Below the pieces are notes generated by a model, which was given only the letters and a program-made list of their open reading frames with translations, was not told where the DNA came from and did not search any database. A stretch of 64,000 bases of DNA. It comes from an uncultured Planctomycetota bacterium. GTDB lineage: Bacteria > Planctomycetota > Planctomycetia > Pirellulales > Thermoguttaceae. Of the stretch, positions 5,253 to 11,046 are shown in pieces. The stretch lies in NCBI GenBank assembly GCA_900318195.1, contig ONJR01000035.1, positions 1 through 64,000 of the forward strand, written 5' to 3'. The position numbers were made by a program, and so were the translations under genes. Within the stretch, counting starts at the first letter, position 1, and each line of letters begins with the position of its first letter.

Positions 5253-6362
5253 CTATTCCTCGTCCTCTTCCTCCTCCTGCTGCGCGCCCAACCCCATTTC
5301 CCAGCGTCGCATTTTCTCGGCCAGCTGTTCGGGAAAGTTCGACTTAGTGAGCGCGTCTTGCTTCGTTACCGTCTGATCCTTCCAGAGTCGGAAAAGATGA
5401 TCGTCTAGCAGTTGCATACCGAGTTTGTGCCCGGTCTGAATCGAGGAGTTAATACGGAACGTCTTGTTTTCACGAATCAGGTTCGCAATTGCGGACGTAA
5501 CGACAAGCATTTCGTACGCAGCAATACGCCCGCCCTGAATACGCGGAAGGAGCTGCTGCGACAGAATGCCGATGATTGAGGTCGACAACTGCGTTCGAAT
5601 CTGCTCTTGCTGGTTCGTGGGGAACACGTCGATGATACGGTTGACCGTACCTTGCGCGCCCGTCGTGTGCAACGTTCCAAAAACAACGTGCCCCGTTTCA
5701 GCCGCCGTAATCGCCGCTTCGATCGTTTCCAAGTCGCGCATTTCACCGACCAGAATGACGTCAGGGTCTTGACGCAACGCGCCGCGGATCGCGTCCGCAA
5801 AGGACATGACGTCGACTCCTACTTCGCGCTGGTTCACCGTCGACTTCTTATGGTGATGATAGAACTCGATCGGGTCTTCGATCGTAATAATATGGTGGTC
5901 CACGTTCGTATTGAGCCAGTCGATACACGCGGCGAGCGTCGTCGATTTACCCGAACCGGTTGGTCCAGTTACCAAAATCATACCGCGCGGACGCTGAATG
6001 AGATCCTTCATGACGGGTGGCGTGCCCAACTGCTCCATCGACAACAGATCGTTAGGAATCTGACGAAGAACCATACCCGTGTTGCCCTTCTGCTTAAAGA
6101 CGGAAACACGGAAACGCGCCTTATCGCCGAACGCAAACCCGAAGTCGGTGCCGCCGCGCTCCTGCAACTCCTGTTGGCATCGACCCGGCGTGATACTCTT
6201 CATGAGCGAGACCGTGTCGGCCGGCTCAAGGGACTTCGTTTCGAGGCGGACAAGTCGCCCGTGCAATCGCAAGACGGGCGGTTGTCCAACCGCAATGTGC
6301 AAGTCGGAGGCGCCGCGCACGACGACCGTCTCCAAAAGTTTGTCAATAAGGATTGTTCCCAT
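5253..6362 (-). CDS. pilT: Twitching motility / pilus retraction ATPase PilT
   Basis: 369 residues. It has the PAS-like N-terminal domain ([19 protein letters not shown]), Walker [11 protein letters not shown] near residue 133, the Asp-box, Walker [14 protein letters not shown], the His-box [18 protein letters not shown] and the C-terminal PilT signature AIANLIRE (normally AIRNLIRE). It lacks the tetracysteine loop of GspE/PilB. PilT hexamers depolymerise type IV pili, driving twitching. Its presence argues that the neighbouring ATPases, platform protein and prepilins make a dynamic pilus, not only a secretion pseudopilus. The C-terminus ends in an acidic run (QQEEEEDEE). An AGGA site lies about 9 bases before the ATG, and the gene is 79 bases downstream of the second PilB on the same strand. 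Confidence 0.95.
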
Positions 6363-6441: not shown

Positions 6442-8157
6442 TCAATCGTCTTCCAAGCGCGCGACGCGCATGACTTCTTCGATCGTTGTAATGCCCTTCA
6501 TCGCCTTGACGATCCCGTCCTCAAAGAGCACGTGCATCCCTTCGCTACGCGCCAACTGCCGAATTTTCGACGTCGATTCGCCTTTAAACGTCATTTCACG
6601 GACGCGCGGCGACATATACATGAGCTCAAAAATGGCGCGACGACCGCGATAGCCCGTCTTATTGCAGTTCACGCACCCCTTGCCTTTCATGAAAGTCGCC
6701 TTAGCCGCCATTTCAGGCGTAATCTGTGCGGCGCGCAGTTCCGCTTCGCTTGGCGTGTATGGACGTTTACACTTCGGACACACCATTCGTACGAGGCGCT
6801 GCGCCATAATGCCGATAACGGAGCTCGCCACCATATATCCCGGCACGCCCATGTCGACGAGACGTGTAATTGCAGAAGGCGCGTCGTTCGTGTGAAGCGT
6901 GCTAAAGACCAAGTGTCCCGTCAAAGACGCTTGAATACCCATCGACGCCGTTTCCAAGTCGCGCATCTCGCCGACGAGAATAACGTTCGGCGCCTGACGC
7001 AACATAGAACGAATAACAGCGGCAAAGTCGAGACCGATCTGGTGCTTGATTTCCACCTGATTGATACCGGGTAGATAGTATTCCACAGGGTCTTCCGCCG
7101 TGATAATCTTGCGGGTCGGCGTATTGAGTTCGTTGAGCGCCGCGTACAAAGAAGTCGTCTTACCCGAACCAGTCGGACCGGTAACGAGAATAATGCCGTT
7201 AGGACGCGCAATCAATTGAGTAAAACGTTTATAGTCGCGCTCGCTAAATCCGAGTTGAACGAGACTGACGCGAATATTGTCCTTATCCAAGATACGCATG
7301 ACGATCGACTGTCCGTGATTCGTCGGAATAACGGAAACGCGCAAGTCGAGTTCCTTTTCGCCAAGCGTCAGTTTAATACGTCCGTCTTGCGTACGCCGTC
7401 TTTCGGCAATGTCGAGTTTTGCAAGAATCTTGAAACGCGACATCAACGCGCCTTGGAAACGTTTCGGCAGAGCTTCACGCTCTACCAGCTTGCCGTCGAT
7501 ACGATAGCGAATGCGCACGCGATCTTCAAAGGGTTCGATATGAATATCGGACGCGCGCAACTGCACCGCTTCCGCAATAATCTGATCGCACAAGCGAACG
7601 ATAGGCGCGTCGCTTTCCGTACTATTGCCTGCTTGATCCGCGTCGGCGCCGCCGCTCTCAACCTCAGTAAAGTTGATTGCCGTGTCGGTCATTTCCTGAA
7701 TCATTGAGTCTGCAGACTCGCCGACGTTCTGTCCATAATGCAGATTGACCGCCTCCTGAATAGCTTCGCGCGAAGAAATAACCGCTTCGATCGGACGTTG
7801 GAGAATAAAGCGTAATTTCTCAAAGACCTCAACGTCGTCGGGATCGCTCACAACCACCACGAGCGCGTCGCCGTCTTCTTCATAGGGCAAGACGCAGTTT
7901 TCACGCGCAATCGATTCGGAAATAAGTTCGACGATCGCCGGTCGAATTGCCACGTCCTTAAGATCGACGTAGCGTTTACCGTGCTCCTGCGCGACCGCTT
8001 GCGCTATCTGTTCGCTCGTAACATAACCAAGTTGCTTGAGCGCTTCCTGAATAGAGACGTTCGTTTTCGCGGCTAGCTCTTTCGCTTCCTTTGCCTGATT
8101 GACGCTAAGTAATCCCTTCTGGTTCAAAATTCCGAGGTAATTTAGTCGTTTCGCCAT
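6442..8157 (-). CDS. pilB: Type IV pilus / type II secretion assembly ATPase (PilB/GspE family), copy 2
   Basis: 571 residues from the ATG at 8157, which has AAGGGA upstream; an in-frame extension to 8238 has no ribosome site and an unlike-family sequence. It has an N-terminal MshEN domain (1-150), an Asp/Ser-rich linker around 165-185, Walker A GPTGSGKTTS near 327, Walker [13 protein letters not shown] near 392, and a zinc loop with CPKC and CVNC pairs. The residue before Walker B is Ala (RQAPNV) where most family members have Asp. It is the first gene of the minus-strand run pilB-pilT-gspE-gspF-prepilins and follows a good promoter at 8304-8332. Sequence differs widely from copy 1, so it is not a recent duplicate. 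Confidence 0.93.
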   Translation of the reverse strand: MAKRLNYLGILNQKGLLSVNQAKEAKELAAKTNVSIQEALKQLGYVTSEQIAQAVAQEHGKRYVDLKDVAIRPAIVELISESIARENCVLPYEEDGDALVVVVSDPDDVEVFEKLRFILQRPIEAVISSREAIQEAVNLHYGQNVGESADSMIQEMTDTAINFTEVESGGADADQAGNSTESDAPIVRLCDQIIAEAVQLRASDIHIEPFEDRVRIRYRIDGKLVEREALPKRFQGALMSRFKILAKLDIAERRRTQDGRIKLTLGEKELDLRVSVIPTNHGQSIVMRILDKDNIRVSLVQLGFSERDYKRFTQLIARPNGIILVTGPTGSGKTTSLYAALNELNTPTRKIITAEDPVEYYLPGINQVEIKHQIGLDFAAVIRSMLRQAPNVILVGEMRDLETASMGIQASLTGHLVFSTLHTNDAPSAITRLVDMGVPGYMVASSVIGIMAQRLVRMVCPKCKRPYTPSEAELRAAQITPEMAAKATFMKGKGCVNCNKTGYRGRRAIFELMYMSPRVREMTFKGESTSKIRQLARSEGMHVLFEDGIVKAMKGITTIEEVMRVARLEDD

Positions 8158-8303
8158 ATAAGTTCCCTTATCGTCGTAATCATAATTTCCGGCAATTCCA
8201 GCGCGACGAACCACACGCCAACGCATTCCAATGCGCAATCGTCCGAGGATGAACCGCGCTTCAATCCTTATCGGCTATCCACGCTACAGAATAGACCTTT
8301 CCT

Positions 8304-8512: not shown

Positions 8513-9655
8513 TTAGATCACTTCGCTATAGCTACCGAGGTACGTAAAGGTCTCGCAAACGCCTCTGAGTTCGCCCATGAGTTGAATAAAACGAGGCGAA
8601 TAGACCGGCGCGTCGAGGTCGAAGTAGAACATGAATTCGAAATCGCGATCGGGCAACGGTCGGCTTTCGAGCTTGATTAAGTTGACGCCGAGCGCATAGA
8701 AACGTGCGAGTAACTTATAGAGCGAACCCGGCTCATGCGACAGACTCGCCATAAGACTTGTGCGATTAGCGCCGGGGAAAATTTCGAGATCTTTTGAGAT
8801 GCAGATAAAACGCGTGTAATTGTTGTCCTTGTCTTGCACAGACGCCTTGAGACACTCGAGTCCGTACAATTTAATGCAGGAGCGCGACGCCAACGCCGCA
8901 ATATCGCGACGTTCCGACGTAGAAACGCGTTCTGCGGCAATCGCCGTGTTCTCGCAGGGAATGATCTTAACGTCTTTGAGTCCGTTAAGGAACTCCGCGC
9001 ACTGGCTAATCGCATGCTGATGCGAGTAGATTTCGCGAACTTCCGACAATTTCACGCCGGGCTTCACGAGAAGATTGTGGTCGATCTTCTGACGAATGCT
9101 CCGCACAATGTAGAATTGGTGCCGTTGCATGAGATCGTAGACCTGGTTCACCGAGCCAGCAAGACTGTTCTCAAGAGGAATGACGCCGTACTTGCAGAAC
9201 CCCTTCTCGATCGCGCTGAAAACGCCCTCGAAATTCGAGAAGTACATAATCTTGGCGCCGTTAATGAGACGATCGCACGCAATCTGTGAATTCGCGCCCT
9301 CGACTCCCTGGCACGCGGCGGAAATGTGGGACGGAAACAGCTTCGGCGTGTTCTCGACCGCCTCTTGGATTCGTCGCGTCAGCTCGCTACCAACCCCCAA
9401 CAAACTGTATTGGTAGCTCCGACTCAACTCCAACATGAGCGAATAAAGGAGCGGAACGTACTCCTGAATATTCTCCGGCGAGTTCTCGACAATACAGTGC
9501 AACTTGTCGCGCTCTCGCTTCATGTCGACGATGGGTAGGTTGTGTTCCTGTTTGAATCGAGCAATTTCGTCCGACATAGTCATTCTTTGTGCGAACAGCT
9601 TTACGATCTGATCGTCGATAGAGTCAATTTGACTCCGATAGTCAGTAAGATCCAT
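8513..9655 (-). CDS. pheA: Bifunctional chorismate mutase / prephenate dehydratase (P-protein)
   Basis: 380 residues in the family's usual three-part order. Chorismate mutase type II helix bundle is at 1-85 (YRSQIDSIDDQIVKLFAQR). Prephenate dehydratase is at about 110-280, with CQGVEGANSQIAC, FEGVFSAIEKG and GVIPLENSLAGSVNQVYDLM. The ACT domain is at about 290-370, with GSLYKLL and ESRPLP, the Phe-binding motifs. It converts chorismate via prephenate to phenylpyruvate in cytoplasmic Phe synthesis, and the ESRP motif implies feedback inhibition by Phe. A GGGAG site lies about 11 bases before the ATG. Upstream lies a Phe-rich leader peptide and terminator (9696-9844), so transcription attenuation by Phe-tRNA is likely as well. 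Confidence 0.96.
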   Translation of the reverse strand: MDLTDYRSQIDSIDDQIVKLFAQRMTMSDEIARFKQEHNLPIVDMKRERDKLHCIVENSPENIQEYVPLLYSLMLELSRSYQYSLLGVGSELTRRIQEAVENTPKLFPSHISAACQGVEGANSQIACDRLINGAKIMYFSNFEGVFSAIEKGFCKYGVIPLENSLAGSVNQVYDLMQRHQFYIVRSIRQKIDHNLLVKPGVKLSEVREIYSHQHAISQCAEFLNGLKDVKIIPCENTAIAAERVSTSERRDIAALASRSCIKLYGLECLKASVQDKDNNYTRFICISKDLEIFPGANRTSLMASLSHEPGSLYKLLARFYALGVNLIKLESRPLPDRDFEFMFYFDLDAPVYSPRFIQLMGELRGVCETFTYLGSYSEVI

Positions 9656-9695: not shown

Positions 9696-9735
9696 AAAAA
9701 AAAGGACGCGTTGCAAGCATAACCTGCAACGCGTC
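9696..9735 (-). terminator. Attenuator (leader terminator) upstream of pheA
   Basis: On the minus strand a perfect 11-bp stem, GACGCGTTGCA pairing with TGCAACGCGTC around a 9-base loop (9705-9735), is followed by CC and eight T (9696-9703). It stands between the leader peptide stop (46 bases upstream) and the pheA start (40 bases downstream). It would therefore stop transcription before pheA unless overridden. Confidence 0.85.
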
Positions 9736-9781
9736 GATTAGCGATCCGCTTTACGTTTCGTTTTTGCATTACAAATTACGC

Positions 9782-9844
9782 TCATACCACGACAGACATG
9801 GTAAAGCTAAACCAAAAACGTTGCGCAAAGCTAAAGTATTTCAT
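9782..9844 (-). CDS. pheA leader peptide (Phe-rich, 20 residues)
   Basis: A short frame reading MKYFSFAQRFWFSF followed by TMSVVV and TGA. Five of the first 13 residues are Phe (all TTT), plus one Tyr and one Trp. A purine-rich AGAAGAG site lies just before the ATG. It sits between a promoter (9927-9956) and an intrinsic terminator (9696-9735) directly upstream of pheA. This is the layout of the enterobacterial pheL leader (established: ribosome stalling at Phe codons prevents terminator folding), although sequence is not otherwise like pheL. Segments inside the frame (CGTTTTTG, GCTTTAC) are complementary to segments after the stop (CAAAAACG, GTAAAGC), giving mutually exclusive pairings. Function is inferred. 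Confidence 0.72.
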   Translation of the reverse strand: MKYFSFAQRFWFSFTMSVVV

Positions 9845-9926
9845 TTTTCTCTTCTACTGAATCTGATGAATTCAAGTCCGACGTCCGTTACCGACGTGAT
9901 CGCGTGAATTAGCTCCACGTCAACCT

Positions 9927-9956
9927 ATAATGTATCGAGAAACAAAAATTCGTCAA
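9927..9956 (-). promoter_or_regulatory. Promoter of the pheA leader transcript
   Basis: On the minus strand, -35 TTGACG (9951-9956) and -10 CATTAT (9927-9932) are separated by 18 bases. Transcription would begin near 9920, about 75 bases before the leader peptide start and about 265 bases before pheA. Confidence 0.55.
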
Positions 9957-10002: not shown

Positions 10003-11046
10003 CTATTGTCCTTCAGACCTGCGCGCTCTCAAATGTAGATTCTTTATTTCAAGGGTCGACTCGTACACCCCCGGAGTCTCCCAGCCGAAATTGAAGTGCG
10101 CGATCACAAAATCGTCGGGTTCTGAATGAGTCAGTAGTCCCCTCTTCTGAGCCGCCGCCAGCGCCTCAGGGAGATAGCGCTTCAAATCGAATTCTATATG
10201 CGCCCAATCGCCGGAATAAGGATTAACGCCTCCCAAAATCGTATCAATCGTTTTCTGATCGCCAAGGCGATAGATCAACTTTCCGGTTCCAATCGTCTTG
10301 GGATCGCCGTCCAGCGCTACGTAGGAACTCTGAACTTCATAACGATCGTCGAAGAAGGAGACGCCAAACCATATATAGTCGTCCAAGTCTTCCGAGCCAG
10401 GCTTACCGTTCGGAATCGCAAAGTAGACTGACGCCTGAGTCGCATGAATGTTGGAATCATAGCTCTCGACCGATTGCAAACGCTTCCAATCGGCAACTCG
10501 CGCGTCGCAAGAGAAAATCAACGAGTCGACGTCCTTAAATGCGACGCGATTCTGTTTAGGAAAATCGTACGTTAGCAAAAGGTGAATCCACGGTTCGTTA
10601 GCGCGCCTCGGCGACGCGTACTCTTGATCTGTGGAAACGCGCAACGTCAAAACGTTTTCGCCTAAAACGTTTGTCGAAAGCGCTACGCGTTGACTCGGAG
10701 TCTCGACAAATCGCGCGGAGCCTTCCGACCGTACGTCGCAACGCGTCAAATCGTATTTCGAATTATGCTGCGCCAACCCCCACGCGGGAGCGCCGGACGC
10801 ATCGTCCTCGTCTTTCATTGGCTCGGTCAAATTAAGCGTTCCGAGCGCTCGGGGCTTCCTAGCAATATCGATTATCTTAAACCCGCGCTCAAAGCGCAAA
10901 TCGTCGAATAATTCACGATCTTCCTCGCTCTGCTTCTGAGCGTCGTGGTCGTTGTCAGCGCCCTGCGCAGAAGCAATGTAAAGAAACAACGTCGTCAAGG
11001 GTATTGCCAACGCTACGATCAACCAATAATTCCAACTTCTCTTCAC
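10003..11046 (-). CDS. Secreted protein of unknown function
   Basis: 347 residues starting at GTG with AAGGAG about 9 bases upstream. The N-terminus is a signal peptide or anchor (KRSWNYWLIVALAIPLTTLFLYIASAQGA). The mature part has many alternating hydrophobic strands and aromatic residues (DDYIWFGVSFFDDRYEVQSSY, SGDWAHIEFDLKRYLPEAL, FVIAHFNFGWETPGVYESTLEIKNLHLR). This would suit a beta-sandwich, perhaps carbohydrate-binding, but no catalytic motif is recognised and the family is unknown to me. It lies 33 bases downstream of an HtrA-like protease gene on the same strand, so the two are probably co-transcribed. It could be a protease substrate or partner in the periplasm, which is only inference. 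Confidence 0.7.
   Translation of the reverse strand: MKRSWNYWLIVALAIPLTTLFLYIASAQGADNDHDAQKQSEEDRELFDDLRFERGFKIIDIARKPRALGTLNLTEPMKDEDDASGAPAWGLAQHNSKYDLTRCDVRSEGSARFVETPSQRVALSTNVLGENVLTLRVSTDQEYASPRRANEPWIHLLLTYDFPKQNRVAFKDVDSLIFSCDARVADWKRLQSVESYDSNIHATQASVYFAIPNGKPGSEDLDDYIWFGVSFFDDRYEVQSSYVALDGDPKTIGTGKLIYRLGDQKTIDTILGGVNPYSGDWAHIEFDLKRYLPEALAAAQKRGLLTHSEPDDFVIAHFNFGWETPGVYESTLEIKNLHLRARRSEGQ

Follow-up and report, generated by a model that had tools for sequence, protein, structure and literature searches.

The region ahead of pheA in this planctomycete genome very probably contains a ribosome-mediated transcription attenuator that controls the gene through the charging of Phe-tRNA, in support of the interpretation given in a preliminary description of the same DNA. 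The window analyzed here is the whole 64,000-nucleotide stretch of an uncultured Planctomycetota bacterium in which this region lies. As in attenuators of the trp/phe type, a leader ORF is located between promoter and gene, codons for the amino acid that the pathway makes are clustered in the leader, and an intrinsic terminator follows. When Phe is plentiful, a ribosome would reach the leader stop codon and cover GCGUAAUUUGUAAUGC, allowing the terminator to fold and transcription to end near 9696. When Phe is scarce, the ribosome would stall at a UUU codon and leave GCGUAAUUUGUAAUGC free to pair with the emerging 5′ arm of the terminator, and RNA polymerase would read into pheA. With no ribosome at all, the leader would pair with the region after its stop codon and the terminator would form, giving basal repression. 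We infer this behavior in the cell from what can be read in the DNA, namely a predicted promoter, a Phe-rich leader, an antiterminator and terminator predicted to be mutually exclusive, the conservation of this arrangement in six species, and homology to clostridial elements.

Table 1. Positions in the window of the features that make up the putative pheA attenuator
Feature	Position	Strand	Evidence or remark
-35 hexamer TTGACG	9951..9956	-	TTGAC[G/C], same relative place in 6/6 species
-10 hexamer TACATT, 16-nt spacer	9929..9934	-	N16 spacing common to 6/6 species
Leader ORF MKYFSFAQRFWFSFTMSVVV and stop TGA	9782..9844	-	Phe-rich leader also in five relatives
Antiterminator 5′ strand GCGTAATTTGTAATGC	9766..9781	-	Directly abuts leader stop; pairs with 9717-9732
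Antiterminator 3′ strand GCGTTGCAGGTTATGC	9717..9732	-	Terminator 5′ arm and loop
Terminator hairpin, stem GACGCGTTGCA/TGCAACGCGTC	9705..9735	-	11 perfect bp, about -22.8 kcal/mol
Terminator T8 tract	9696..9703	-	Direct sequence reading
Whole element, match to covariance model R1	9701..9799	-	30.2 bits, E 1.3e-4 in window
pheA, bifunctional (fused) chorismate mutase-prephenate dehydratase, 380 aa, regulated gene	8513..9655	-	Pfam CM_2, PDT

The control region occupies 9956-9655 of the minus strand, where the promoter is followed in order by a leader of 20 codons, five of them TTT, and by the terminator and pheA. The leader begins with ATG at 9844 and ends with TGA at 9784-9782, and its regulatory Phe codons, all TTT, are codons 4, 6, 10, 12 and 14; the five had been announced within the first 13 codons, but the last falls just beyond. 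Besides Phe, MKYFSFAQRFWFSFTMSVVV has two further aromatic residues, with one Trp and one Tyr codon, and its Shine-Dalgarno sequence (AGAAGAG) is weak. The promoter proposed earlier, TTGACG-N18-CATTAT, is present, but the overlapping N16-TACATT scores equally and is the version kept in all six species, and we prefer it. The perfect 11-bp hairpin and its eight T were likewise there as reported, except that one C separates the stem from the T8 tract; RNAfold gives a stem of 14 bp with a 3-nt loop. The distance of 46 nt from stop codon to hairpin was confirmed, as was the placing of the pheA ATG (9655) 40 nt past the T8 tract, and the identity of pheA is backed by Pfam matches of its product (CM_2, 3.6e-18; PDT, 7.1e-56).

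Several neighboring features were seen in passing. A second perfect hairpin, GCGCGC-TGAT-GCGCGC, lies directly after the T8 tract at 9695-9680 in the pheA 5′ UTR and was not seen in relative L003. Upstream is a 347-aa ORF (10003-11046, minus strand) with no Pfam match, and two adjoining genes for pilus/type II secretion ATPase-like proteins lie at 5253-6362 and 6442-8238 (minus strand); the 598-aa ATPase-like protein matches T2SSE and MshEN, and the adjoining gene was judged by eye.

Comparison with close relatives, named in the preliminary description as the test on which its reading would fall, bore it out. Searching 119 genomes from the organism's family at the protein level yielded five planctomycetes of the same genus (L003-L007; the compared sequences are metagenome-assembled genomes, MAGs) with PheA 74-82% identical to that of the window. 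All five of these orthologous pheA genes are preceded by a promoter, a Phe-rich leader, an antiterminator and a terminator. The leader peptides (MKNFYFAGRFEFSFTGGNRV, MTTNVFSFTEFFWFSFTMTP, MNRLFSFIPFFDFIFTGGSR, MINVFSFSSFFNFISADVGRRRS and MINVFSFASFFSFTFTAVGRRGRS) drift elsewhere, and each of the six, including that of the window, keeps 5-6 Phe and 0-1 Tyr. Each of the six species also has a terminator, with a hairpin of -18.5 to -23.9 kcal/mol and T7-8. No convincing Phe leader was found ahead of the resident pheA of about 40 other genomes of the family, and a search of viral contigs returned no relatives.

The antiterminator pairing, which the preliminary description had not resolved by eye, can now be assigned. 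By direct reading, GCGUAAUUUGUAAUGC (9781-9766), immediately after the UGA, forms 16 continuous pairs, G-U included, with GCGUUGCAGGUUAUGC (9732-9717), and RNAduplex places the best duplex between the stop-codon region and the terminator 5′ arm in this same register in all six species. Compared with 1000 shuffles for each species, its strength gave p 0.10 in the window, a modest value for that sequence alone, and 0.055, 0.004, 0.045, 0.002 and 0.021 in the others. Fourteen of the 16 pairs were scored across species (12 are in the clostridial model described below) and counted with a script after manual removal of a one-base bulge from L006 and L007; all 14 are kept in five species and 12 in one. 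The helices are of two types, one in the window, L003 and L004 and the other in L006 and L007, and strands form 13-14 pairs with a partner of their own type against 10-11 with the other, while L005 forms 12 with any partner.

The calculated response to ribosome position agrees with the proposed switch. We masked 15 nt downstream of the A site and scored the helix before the terminator 3′ arm emerges. In the window, the antiterminator has a probability of 0.94-1.00 with the ribosome at any Phe codon and 0.14 with it at the stop codon; folding of the leader with and without a stalled ribosome had been put forward as a check. The corresponding values are 0.65-1.00 and at most 0.01 in L003, L005, L006 and L007. 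In L004 they are 0.93-1.00 and 0.48, so that the calculated exclusion of the antiterminator by a ribosome at the stop codon, a further trait of trp/phe-type attenuators, is only partial there. In L006 and L007 the minimum-energy fold is itself the antiterminator in the stalled state and the terminator in the stop state. The full-length minimum-energy fold of the window always holds the terminator (-22.8 against -16.0 kcal/mol); since the terminator wins at equilibrium, antitermination must be kinetic, as in classical attenuators. The complementary segments pointed out earlier, CGTTTTTG/CAAAAACG and GCTTTAC/GTAAAGC, are present, and both form pairs when the leader is folded with no ribosome on it, leaving the terminator free to form.

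The closest PheA sequences outside these planctomycetes are from Ruminococcus, Oscillospiraceae and Lachnospiraceae (69% identity and down), and most other pheA products of the family are only about 30% identical to that of the window. A tree, whose direction is not rooted, places planctomycete groups g1A and g34 among clostridial sequences. A Treponema MAG (L086, L316) also has a clostridial-type PheA, together with three copies of DAHP synthase (DAHPS), the one examined having no convincing leader ahead of it. Clostridial pheA has no leader directly upstream, which had suggested an origin of the attenuator within planctomycetes following transfer of pheA; that idea was abandoned when leaders were found before clostridial DAHPS. 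Of 38 readable genomes from outside the planctomycetes, nearly all clostridial, 34 have an aromatic-rich leader ORF ahead of DAHPS (for example MLRNYFYNAYYFYFTTIYKL and MKNFVFASYYFYFTASSGKGNL), and a strict scan found a terminator in 23 of 35 cases. Their antiterminators covary, as in GGGUAAUUUGUG/CACAGGUUAUCC and GCGUUUUCUGC/GCAGAGAACGC; across 15 aligned sequences, 91.5% of cells are paired, against 31-53% when the strands are slid, and four pairs have changed on both sides.

From 15 clostridial leaders, with no planctomycete sequence among them and the antiterminator as sole structure, we built the covariance model R1. It has one significant match in the window, the pheA element, with all 12 model pairs intact and standard, and this is also its only match across the organism's own assembly (E 0.008). 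Among relatives it matches L004 (E 3.3e-6), L003 (E 0.0026; missed in the strict genome scan) and five g34 genomes; L005-L007, which have diverged further, were unmatched throughout. A match in G048 contig 7 was judged false, since neither a leader nor an aromatic gene was seen next to it. On this sequence evidence the window element and the clostridial leaders are homologous RNAs, sharing a GTAATTTGT-ATGC core, the terminator loop CAGGTTA and all 12 pairs. They differ in that the clostridial leaders mix Phe and Tyr and stand before a DAHPS operon, whereas the window element stands before pheA alone.

Genus g34 of the planctomycete family has the gene order DAHPS-tyrA-aroB-aroC-pheA behind the leader MKAFAFSFVYYYYFTPPRA or one like it, with an aromatic leader before DAHPS in all five g34 operons read; the genes were named from a reading of the proteins, not from profiles. 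An aromatic operon with a mixed Phe/Tyr attenuator appears to be shared with gut Clostridia, the order being that read in g34 and the clostridial operon being presumed. Because Clostridia carry mixed Phe/Tyr leaders before the DAHP-synthase operon, the switch probably arrived with horizontally acquired aromatic genes, and transfer from Clostridia to planctomycetes is likelier than the reverse, although the tree is unrooted.

A sister element precedes the solitary DAHP synthase of the same genome (contig C113, about 19496-19394; L222), where the Tyr-rich leader MTATSTEFTRYYFYSYYCFWRYVAVACCRMGKS is accompanied by a strong terminator and by the promoter TTGACA-N16-CATAAT. Tyr-rich DAHPS leaders with a terminator are found in the same five relatives (L227-L231), one of them containing eight consecutive Tyr. 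Tyr, at 4-8 per leader, predominates in the DAHPS leaders without being exclusive. The motif GCGTATTGTCGC near their end is kept while the reading frame shifts (AYCR or RIVA), which argues for a role as RNA; by direct reading, pairing with UGCGACAA of the DAHPS terminator is possible, and duplex tests of this pairing were mixed (p 0.004-0.70). Five other species of the genus have DAHPS and pheA adjacent behind a mixed leader, MASFTYYYNAKSYGFNYAFLFTG... Leader Phe:Tyr counts are 33:2 before pheA alone, 24:37 before DAHPS alone and 21:25 before the DAHPS-pheA pair, and the first two differ by Fisher's test at 3e-8, in species that are not independent of each other. No leader was found by the criteria used upstream of the genome's own pheS, trpE, second DAHPS or tyrA. 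The operon seems to have split in this genus, the codons of each leader agreeing with its downstream gene (Tyr-rich for DAHPS, Phe for pheA, mixed for DAHPS-pheA). We consider it likely that an ancestral clostridial Phe/Tyr leader entered gut planctomycetes with the operon, and that breakup of the operon partitioned its codons into Phe attenuators for pheA and Tyr-dominant attenuators for DAHPS.

Other explanations of the locus need to be weighed against attenuation by Phe-tRNA charging. The terminator could merely end the transcript of the upstream ORF (10003-11046), which is on the same strand, or mark an sRNA, the Phe frame being accidental. Of the ATG-initiated ORFs of 8-30 codons in the window, only the leader has 5 or more Phe within 14 codons, and a strong terminator lies downstream of it; 60 simulated first-order Markov windows contained a mean of 0.87 such ORFs, so about one per window is expected by chance. 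Nor is the bare codon pattern F-x-F-x3-F-x-F-x-F rare genome-wide. We searched for it in 119 genomes and dropped it as evidence, since the organism's own genome did no better than its reversed control (11 matches against 12); the case for the attenuator rests on position, terminator and conservation. Against this, the combination of frame and terminator occurred in 0 of the 60 simulated windows, the clostridial model finds the locus, all six species retain the frame together with its spacing, antiterminator and terminator, and a conserved promoter separates the upstream ORF from the leader. We regard this explanation as highly improbable.

Sensing by a T-box or another tRNA- or ligand-binding riboswitch, with the leader ORF incidental, would be in keeping with the clostridial relatives of the element, as T-boxes regulate many clostridial amino-acid genes. 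However, neither a T-box nor any other Rfam family matched the window element, the clostridial leaders or the DAHPS leaders, the antiterminator strand directly adjoins the stop codon of the leader, and the leader codons follow the downstream gene; we give a riboswitch almost no credence. The leader might also sense aromatic amino acids generally, or its nascent peptide might arrest the ribosome, rather than its Phe codons being read as such. This leader does encode Tyr and Trp, mixed Phe/Tyr leaders look ancestral, and a Phe-Thr motif is common to many leaders across genera. These readings fit poorly with the 33 Phe and 2 Tyr of the six pheA-only leaders and with the residues between Phe codons, which vary among the species; we hold either to be unlikely.

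The kind of mechanism, classical attenuation, is old. The window element has the layout of the enterobacterial attenuators of pheA (pheL) and pheST, Rfam RF01859, from which it differs in that its antiterminator is one direct helix from stop codon to terminator arm. A Phe-rich leader, a terminator, a mutually exclusive fold and pheA downstream are the layout described for these enterobacterial attenuators (PMC11802643). The window gave no match to RF01859 Phe_leader at E up to 10, nor any score at its gathering threshold, and one clostridial relative scored 24 bits (gathering 55; E 4.1), which is chance level. No known RNA family in Rfam 15, T-box included, was found at the window site. The Corynebacterium glutamicum AroR-aroF attenuator, according to the account in PMC11802643 of Neshat et al. 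2014, has an aromatic leader before a DAHP synthase operon, as do the sister DAHPS leaders; in that account AroR carries no more than Phe-Tyr-Phe and answers to Phe but not to Tyr, whereas the sister leaders have 4-8 Tyr each. The uORFC-13-1 motif, as described in the parts of PMC8632094 consulted, is a computationally predicted uORF with Phe codons and a terminator ahead of aroF in Acholeplasma, with 24 representatives from Acholeplasma and environmental sequences only. It resembles the present elements in having such a uORF and terminator upstream of DAHP synthase; going by that description, Tyr-rich leaders, pheA and planctomycetes are all missing from it, and no such family was matched in Rfam 15. 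The freely accessible literature searched yielded no published tyrosine attenuator, and the Tyr-dominant version appears undescribed. As far as this literature and Rfam 15 show, the presence of such an element in planctomycetes, the clostridial Phe/Tyr family and its apparent transfer are new.

Transcription-translation coupling has been questioned in planctomycetes, and the pheA element would give this phylum a definite example of regulation that depends on close coupling. For Clostridia, in which control of this sort is usually attributed to T-boxes, leader-peptide attenuation would be an addition; the family is common there (34/38 genomes), is unmatched in Rfam 15, and could be modeled and searched for. 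That a single RNA switch should carry Phe codons, Tyr codons or a mixture, depending on which gene it precedes, offers a natural experiment on the evolution of sensor specificity.

Further aromatic leaders were observed elsewhere in the planctomycete family. In genus g32, whose PheA is distant (about 29%), the four genomes examined (L113, L114, L115 and L117) have Phe/Tyr leaders, for example MFNQAANKFVFMFFFAYYYFSNGR, with a longer, his-like series of alternative hairpins, possibly an independent attenuator. In genera g39 and g40, a conserved FYW leader, GFYRFYWYFTNNAPVG, precedes a DAHPS-chorismate mutase fusion in 7 of 18 regions (L258, L259, L260, L261, L264, L266 and L271).
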